This document shows positions 33,022 through 33,217 of a stretch of 34,977 bases of DNA, in pieces (the first letter of the stretch is position 1; every line of letters starts with the position of its first letter). The stretch lies in contig JASHOK010000010.1 of NCBI GenBank assembly GCA_030041175.1, positions 1 to 34,977 of the forward strand, given 5' to 3'. The stretch is from Thermoplasmata archaeon (GTDB taxonomy: Archaea; Thermoplasmatota; Thermoplasmata; Lutacidiplasmatales; UBA184). Below the pieces are notes generated by a model that was given only the letters and a program-made list of their open reading frames with translations, was not told the DNA's origin and made no database searches. The position numbers were made by a program, and so were the translations under genes.

Positions 33022-33126
33022 GCCGCCGTAGCTCAGCGGCAGAGCGCTCGGCTGTTAACCGAAGGGTCAGCGGTTCAAAGGTCCGGGACGCCTCGCGCGA
33101 CCGGTCTGAAACTCCGCTCGGCGGCG
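33022..33126 (+). tRNA. tRNA-Asn (GTT) with a 33-base intron in the T-loop
   Basis: Acceptor stem GCCGCCG (33022-33028) pairs fully with CGGCGGC (33119-33125), discriminator G 33126. D stem GCTC (33031-33034) pairs with GAGC (33042-33045). Anticodon stem 33047-33051/33059-33063 encloses CTGTTAA with anticodon GTT at 33054-33056; only the outermost pair (C-A) is a mismatch. The T stem AGCGG (33069-33073) pairs with CCGCT (33114-33118), but 33 extra bases (33080-33112) split the loop. Removing them restores the canonical TTCAAAT loop, insertion between positions 59 and 60. Mature length 72; no encoded CCA. Asn assigned by anticodon GUU. Confidence 0.9.
33080..33112 (+). other. tRNA intron at position 59/60 with bulge-helix-bulge splice motif
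   Basis: Central 4-base helix: exon TTCA (33074-33077) pairs with intron TGAA (33107-33110). The two 3-base bulges are AAG (33078-33080, cut after 33079) and ACT (33111-33113, cut after 33112). The outer helix is the T stem itself; the inner helix is GTCCGG (33081-33086) with CCGGTC (33101-33106), one T-T mismatch. This is the symmetric archaeal splicing-endonuclease motif. Confidence 0.88.
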
Positions 33127-33141: not shown

Positions 33142-33217
33142 GGGCCCGTAGCTTAGCCCGGCTCAGAGCGACCGGCTCATAACCGGTCGGTCGGCGGTTC
33201 AAATCCGTCCGGGCCCA
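33142..33217 (+). tRNA. tRNA with CAT anticodon (elongator Met or Ile2)
   Basis: Acceptor GGGCCCG (33142-33148) pairs with CGGGCCC (33210-33216), discriminator A 33217. D stem GCTT/GAGC; anticodon stem ACCGG (33171-33175)/CCGGT (33183-33187) around CTCATAA, anticodon CAT 33178-33180; T arm GGCGG-TTCAAAT-CCGTC with one G-T pair. No intron, no CCA. The initiator is unlikely because the anticodon stem lacks the three G-C pairs typical of initiators. Elongator Met and Ile2 (CAU modified to decode AUA) cannot be told apart; the acceptor resembles archaeal tRNA-Ile. Probably co-transcribed with tRNA-Asn, 15 bases away. Confidence 0.9.

Follow-up and report, generated by a model that had tools for sequence, protein, structure and literature searches.

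Position 59/60 is already listed among the non-canonical sites of archaeal tRNA introns, with Crenarchaeota and Nanoarchaeota cited as the lineages where such introns abound; Euryarchaeota with α4 or α2 splicing endonucleases are said to have introns in fewer than 10% of their tRNA genes, one each and at 37/38 only (PMC4090602). Korarchaeum has been named the only α2 archaeon with non-canonical introns, and many tRNAs split at such positions, some of them by two introns, are described from Thermoproteales (PMC4033280) and from Atabeyarchaeia and Freyarchaeia (PMC11291895). As to the fused α′2 enzymes, the one from Archaeoglobus is said to require a strict 3-nt bulge (PMC12397907), and the homodimeric Ferroplasma enzyme can remove a bulge-helix-bulge (BHB) intron set in a 7-base hairpin loop of lacZ mRNA (PMC8707768), a precedent with a 2-base 5′ bulge, as against the 3-base bulges of the gene described below. 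Introns of the 59/60 type are detectable by tRNAscan-SE 2.0 (PMC8450103), and databases may therefore contain some of them already. For Thermoplasmatota, no report of 59/60 introns was found in the open-access papers searched, and the paper naming the order Lutacidiplasmatales (PMC9287336) does not use the word “intron” in its main text. Intron type and position are known; the lineage, the scale and the enzyme pairing appear to be undescribed in the papers searched.

The gene considered here lies in an acid-soil archaeon, on a stretch of 34,977 nucleotides that was analysed as a whole (the window). A preliminary description, made from the letters alone, had taken the genome for one of Thermoplasmatota, and rightly so: its family is that of Ca. 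Lutacidiplasma silvani, order Lutacidiplasmatales (PMC9287336), since the tRNA-Asn locus of one family genome (G365) is identical over 2,342 bp to that of Ca. L. silvani AcS3-62 (L076) and that of another (G272) matches isolate SubAcS10-22. Compared with known 59/60 BHB introns, the intron is alike in position, motif, small size and presumed splicing by protein; it is unlike them in its lineage, in the company it keeps (at least 12 isotypes in one genome) and in being paired with a fused α′2 enzyme that has no specificity loop. It is very probably a protein-spliced BHB intron in a single tRNA-Asn gene, cut by a strict α′2 enzyme at a site resembling 37/38.

Anatomy of the tRNA-Asn gene

By its sequence, window 33022-33126 on the forward strand is a tRNA-Asn(GUU) gene, complete once 33080-33112 is taken out. 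Its parts and its neighbor are as follows; a slash marks the splice site.

33022-33079, forward strand: exon 1, tRNA positions 1-59, with anticodon GTT at 33054-33056 (sequence; match to Rfam RF00005 on the 5′ part)
33069-33073, forward strand: 5′ strand of the T-stem, AGCGG, 5/5 pairs with 33114-33118
33074-33077, forward strand: exon strand of the BHB central helix, UUCA (positions 54-57), 4/4 pairs with 33107-33110
33078-33080, forward strand: bulge at the 5′ splice site, AA/G (sequence and pairing)
33080-33112, forward strand: intron, 33 nt, between positions 59 and 60 (excision restores the tRNA; orthologous introns in the family)
33107-33110, forward strand: intron strand of the BHB central helix, UGAA (pairing with UUCA)
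33111-33113, forward strand: bulge at the 3′ splice site, AC/U (sequence and pairing)
33113-33126, forward strand: exon 2, positions 60-73, made up of U60, the 3′ strands of T-stem and acceptor, and discriminator G (sequence)
33114-33118, forward strand: 3′ strand of the T-stem, CCGCT (sequence; pairing with AGCGG)
33142-33217, forward strand: uninterrupted tRNA with anticodon CAU, 15 bases downstream of tRNA-Asn (ARAGORN, called Met; Rfam tRNA)

Exon 1 leads from the acceptor strand GCCGCCG through the anticodon GTT and the T-stem strand AGCGG to TTCAAA; exon 2 resumes with T33113 and CCGCT and ends with the acceptor strand CGGCGGC and the discriminator G33126. The acceptor is paired in 7/7 positions and the T-stem in 5/5, and excision of the 33 nt (GGTCCGGGACGCCTCGCGCGACCGGTCTGAAAC) leaves both stems intact and a 7-nt T-loop, TTCAAAT, the same as in the adjoining tRNA. 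Together, the two junctions make up a canonical BHB: UUCA pairs with UGAA over 4 bp, flanked by two 3-base bulges. The preliminary description had claimed just this, a tRNA-Asn with a 33-base T-loop intron at 33080-33112 and the archaeal splicing motif of two 3-base bulges around TTCA/TGAA, and was correct in every detail. When the intron is shuffled, the observed pairing of central and inner helix is reached with p = 1.25e-4. No self-splicing group I or II ribozyme core was found: the intron has 33 nt, and the window's Rfam matches are to tRNA alone. With a standard tRNA on removal, a central helix of about 4 bp and 3-nt bulges, 33080-33112 is predicted to be a BHB intron. In the precursor, T-loop bases U54, U55, C56 and A57 would pair with UGAA near the 3′ end of the intron; an α′2 endonuclease homodimer would cut each 3-base bulge between its second and third bases; and RtcB, the gene for which is present in the genome, would join A59 to U60.

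Such genes are easily overlooked. As the preliminary description anticipated for standard searches, ARAGORN misses tRNA-Asn altogether, and the Rfam tRNA model returns only a mis-bounded fragment, 33022-33075, at 31 bits. Common finders miss or mis-bound genes of this kind, so tRNA counts used for completeness in the class may be too low. Two observations concern the neighborhood. The anticodon stem of tRNA-Asn (33047-33051/33059-33063) has a C/A mismatch at 27-43, absent from the preliminary description; an A/A mismatch is common at this pair in relatives from the family (L041, L076 and others). The downstream CAU tRNA is probably tRNA-Ile2(CAU): its acceptor and D-arm resemble those of tRNA-Ile(GAU) (L011), and there are further CAU genes in the genome, one intron-bearing (L019) and one initiator (L227).

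Introns at 59/60 in the genome and beyond

The tRNA genes of the genome (G000; 1.79 Mb, 89% complete, 98 contigs) were collected by Rfam family search together with anticodon and pattern searches. At least 12 are interrupted at exactly 59/60: besides Asn, these are Arg-UCU, Arg-UCG, Asp-GUC, Glu-CUC, Lys-UUU, Gly-UCC, Ser-GCU, Ser-GGA, Ser-CGA, Ala-GGC and Gln-CUG. Genes split at this bond make up the majority of the genome's weak tRNA matches. All 12 tRNAs have a full 5-bp T-stem, and every one of the introns allows a drawing with 3-base bulges; central pairing amounts to 42/48 (20.9 ± 3.2 in shuffles) and inner-stem pairing to 50/60 (22.9 ± 3.7), values that 0/20,000 shuffles reach in either case. 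The fourth central pair is a non-standard A·G in half of them (6/12), and also in 2/5 of the genome's canonical 37/38 introns (Tyr, a CAU tRNA, Glu-UUC, Leu-UAA and Trp), which share their register with the 59/60 introns. A T-loop scanner gave zero matches on shuffled and reversed control sequence; four of its matches in real sequence (L009, L012, L016, L238) were rejected as false for weak central pairing and overlap with other tRNAs.

Could the 33 bases simply be retained, leaving a tRNA-Asn that works in translation with an enlarged T-loop hairpin? In ordinary tRNAs the T-loop contacts the D-loop; twelve different tRNAs are split at the same bond, with bulges and central helix preserved, and excision restores a T-loop of exactly 7 bases, all of which makes retention highly improbable. 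That this is a dead copy, with a working gene in the 11% of the genome that the assembly lacks, can appeal to an assembly that is 89% complete and in 98 contigs, yet it is scarcely credible. This tRNA-Asn is the sole one found, by Rfam and anticodon-pattern searches, in the 89%-complete genome, with no uninterrupted copy; an intact tRNA-Asn pattern occurs in none of the 24 family genomes sampled, several of them 97-100% complete. The nearest named relative, isolate JOPF056 (L145), differs by one change in the intron, and identity reaches 98% over the 202 bp of the Asn/CAU tRNA pair, as against 88% in the surrounding 1.7 kb; the intron stem, moreover, covaries (see below).

The intron does widen the published distribution of the 59/60 position, as the preliminary description had foreseen for a Thermoplasmatota genome (class and family labels, such as f4 and f6, are those of the search tool, and most of the genomes are MAGs). 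An interrupted tRNA-Asn pattern is present in 21 of the 24 family genomes and in 0 of 366 other genomes of the phylum. Inspection adds one more, G004, which escaped the pattern because its variable loop reads GATC, so that the tRNA-Asn intron is present in at least 22/24; G186 and G355 stand outside this count. The intact pattern is found in 104 genomes outside the family. A pattern for other isotypes matches 115/160 genomes of the class (the reversed control gave scattered matches only); 56 of 60 loci collected for checking are complete tRNAs with a 59/60 intron, and some ten further families of the class proved to have complete tRNAs of this sort. Family f4 has the intron in Arg-UCU in the members checked; family f6, with some two dozen genomes, gave no match to the 59/60 intron pattern. 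T-loop introns are widespread in a class described as having tRNA introns only beside the anticodon. Outside the phylum, the matches listed place tRNA-Asn 59/60 introns in Bathyarchaeia, Lokiarchaeia, an Asgard-group MAG, Nanohaloarchaeota, Aenigmatarchaeota and Nanoarchaeota MAGs; the loci among these listed matches include L038, L045, L049, L053, L068, L085, L093, L102, L106 and L151. Bacterial near-matches (Cellulosilyticum, Kyrpidia, Eisenbergiella and others) were rejected as introns, having no matching acceptor stem or no short, plausible intron.

Introns elsewhere in tRNAs of the genome were noticed as well. By eye, Lys-UUU, Arg-GCG and initiator Met have apparent D-loop introns; those of initiator Met (L227, contig C27) and Arg-GCG (L234, contig C30) can be drawn with a 4-bp central helix and 3-base bulges, and tRNA-Lys(UUU) (L232, contig C83:46300-46800) is apparently interrupted twice, in the D-loop and at 59/60, a double-intron tRNA such as the archaea with many non-canonically split tRNAs possess. 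The 37/38 intron of tRNA-Trp (L231, contig C88:11161-11267) is 89 nt long, room enough for a C/D box guide RNA, an arrangement seen in other archaea.

Covariation and origin of the introns

Forty-three distinct tRNA-Asn introns of 32 nt share a ten-pair inner stem, which is 88% paired and has 91 compensatory cells, that is, cells with both sides changed; when one strand is slid by 1-3 positions, pairing falls to 42-52% and compensatory cells to 16-35. The stem is strongly conserved by compensatory change. The central helix of the Asn relatives is paired in 236/296 positions, as against 127 ± 8 in shuffles, often with one mismatch, C·C or A·G, and the 3′ bulge is nearly always A, any base, then, after the splice site, a pyrimidine (A-N/Y).

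Where did the introns come from? In Thermoproteales, recent spread by transposition between tRNA genes has been proposed, and introns there are very similar across isotypes. The same could be imagined here, where 12 isotypes are interrupted at the same position by introns with similar 3′ ends and where the Ala-GGC and Ser-CGA introns of the genome are unusually, if mildly, alike. However, introns of different isotypes are no more alike within a genome (0.111) than between genomes (0.101), while from genome to genome introns in one isotype resemble each other (0.247 as against 0.120 permuted, 0/2000), and eight interrupted isotypes are common to all three family genomes compared. Neither the cross-isotype similarity nor the specificity loop of the crenarchaeal enzymes is found here. 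Intron similarity in the three genomes gave no general signal of recent transposition, and we regard such an origin as improbable. Same-isotype likeness and shared isotypes fit vertical inheritance of an old set of introns, which would have been preserved by compensatory change.

The splicing endonuclease and the T-arm site

Which enzyme would remove these introns? A PF01974 search of the genome finds one EndA open reading frame, outside the window and 355 aa long from its likely GTG start. The protein comprises two units, with two PF01974 and two PF02778 stretches; its best PDB matches are 5x89, an EndA-like protein that comes top and that we take to be from Methanopyrus kandleri, and the Archaeoglobus enzyme 2gjw, and in the alignment Tyr291, His299 and Lys330 of the C-terminal unit occupy the positions of the Archaeoglobus triad. 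In the Archaeoglobus construct 3p1y, which on our reading of its sequence carries the crenarchaeal loop, additional residues mark the site of that loop; aligned with 3p1y, the corresponding segment (AYGSRIGHRLELSL) has no CSL/ASL insertion between YGS and the LxLSL strand (here LELSL), and the same is true of the aligned relatives' EndA. The preliminary description had named α4, α2β2 and ε2 as the subunit types to expect; the enzyme is predicted to be none of these, but a fused homodimeric α′2 type without a crenarchaeal or ARMAN loop, the element credited with admitting non-canonical introns. It resembles the α′2 enzymes of Archaeoglobus (2gjw) and Ferroplasma in its single fused two-unit chain, its C-terminal triad and its want of a CSL/ASL, and differs from them in being longer, with a fuller N-terminal unit. 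A single two-unit EndA was found in nearly all of 30 relatives searched, the exceptions being G219, with none, and G101 and G290, with one extra weak match each.

If the enzyme has no specificity loop, how might it cut at a non-canonical position? The answer may lie in geometry. Position 59/60 is in effect the twin of 37/38: in each case a 5-bp stem closes a 7-base loop and the site follows loop nucleotide 6, and at both the central helix would form on loop bases 1-4, with 3-base bulges on either side. The differences are the T-arm site itself and the use of a conserved UUCR, instead of the anticodon loop, in the central helix. A strict α′2 enzyme that reads the BHB and not the tRNA would then see a canonical substrate in the T-arm. 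The sequence UUCR is near-universal in T-loops, so the same architecture would fit most tRNAs; about a dozen carry it in the family. The preliminary description, which called the intron non-canonical and concluded that it would imply an endonuclease able to cut such sites, was right about the position; since 59/60 shares its loop geometry with 37/38 and the motif is canonical, a relaxed enzyme would not be needed.

The intron could nevertheless be real and be excised by a relaxed, crenarchaeal-like enzyme, with a missed second subunit or some other specificity element. Homodimeric forms are able to cut BHL-like motifs (PMC8707768), some relatives have imperfect central helices, and the C·C third pair of many Asn relatives suggests more latitude than would be expected from the Archaeoglobus enzyme, which is described as strict. 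The length of α′ may be cited too: it is about 350 aa in the intron-bearing families checked (P0001, L195, L196, L198) and 292-299 aa in two families without detected 59/60 introns (L202, L222). Such an enzyme is unlikely, however, given the one two-domain EndA open reading frame in the genome and in nearly all relatives checked, the lack of an insertion at the CSL/ASL site between YGS and LELSL, and the 3-base bulges that can be drawn for 12/12 introns.

We lean, if only slightly, to the reading that 59/60 introns are pervasive alongside a loopless α′2 enzyme because the T-arm offers a strict enzyme a second canonical site. If so, the diversity of tRNA intron positions would be limited by the geometry and sequence of the arms, not by acquisition of a specificity loop, in contradiction to the usual account in which loop and introns co-evolve. 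One enzyme and one transcript would suffice to test that co-evolution model directly in vitro. A link between α′ length and intron load is possible, judging by the two short representatives, and the longer chain in the intron-bearing families may be a further adaptation.
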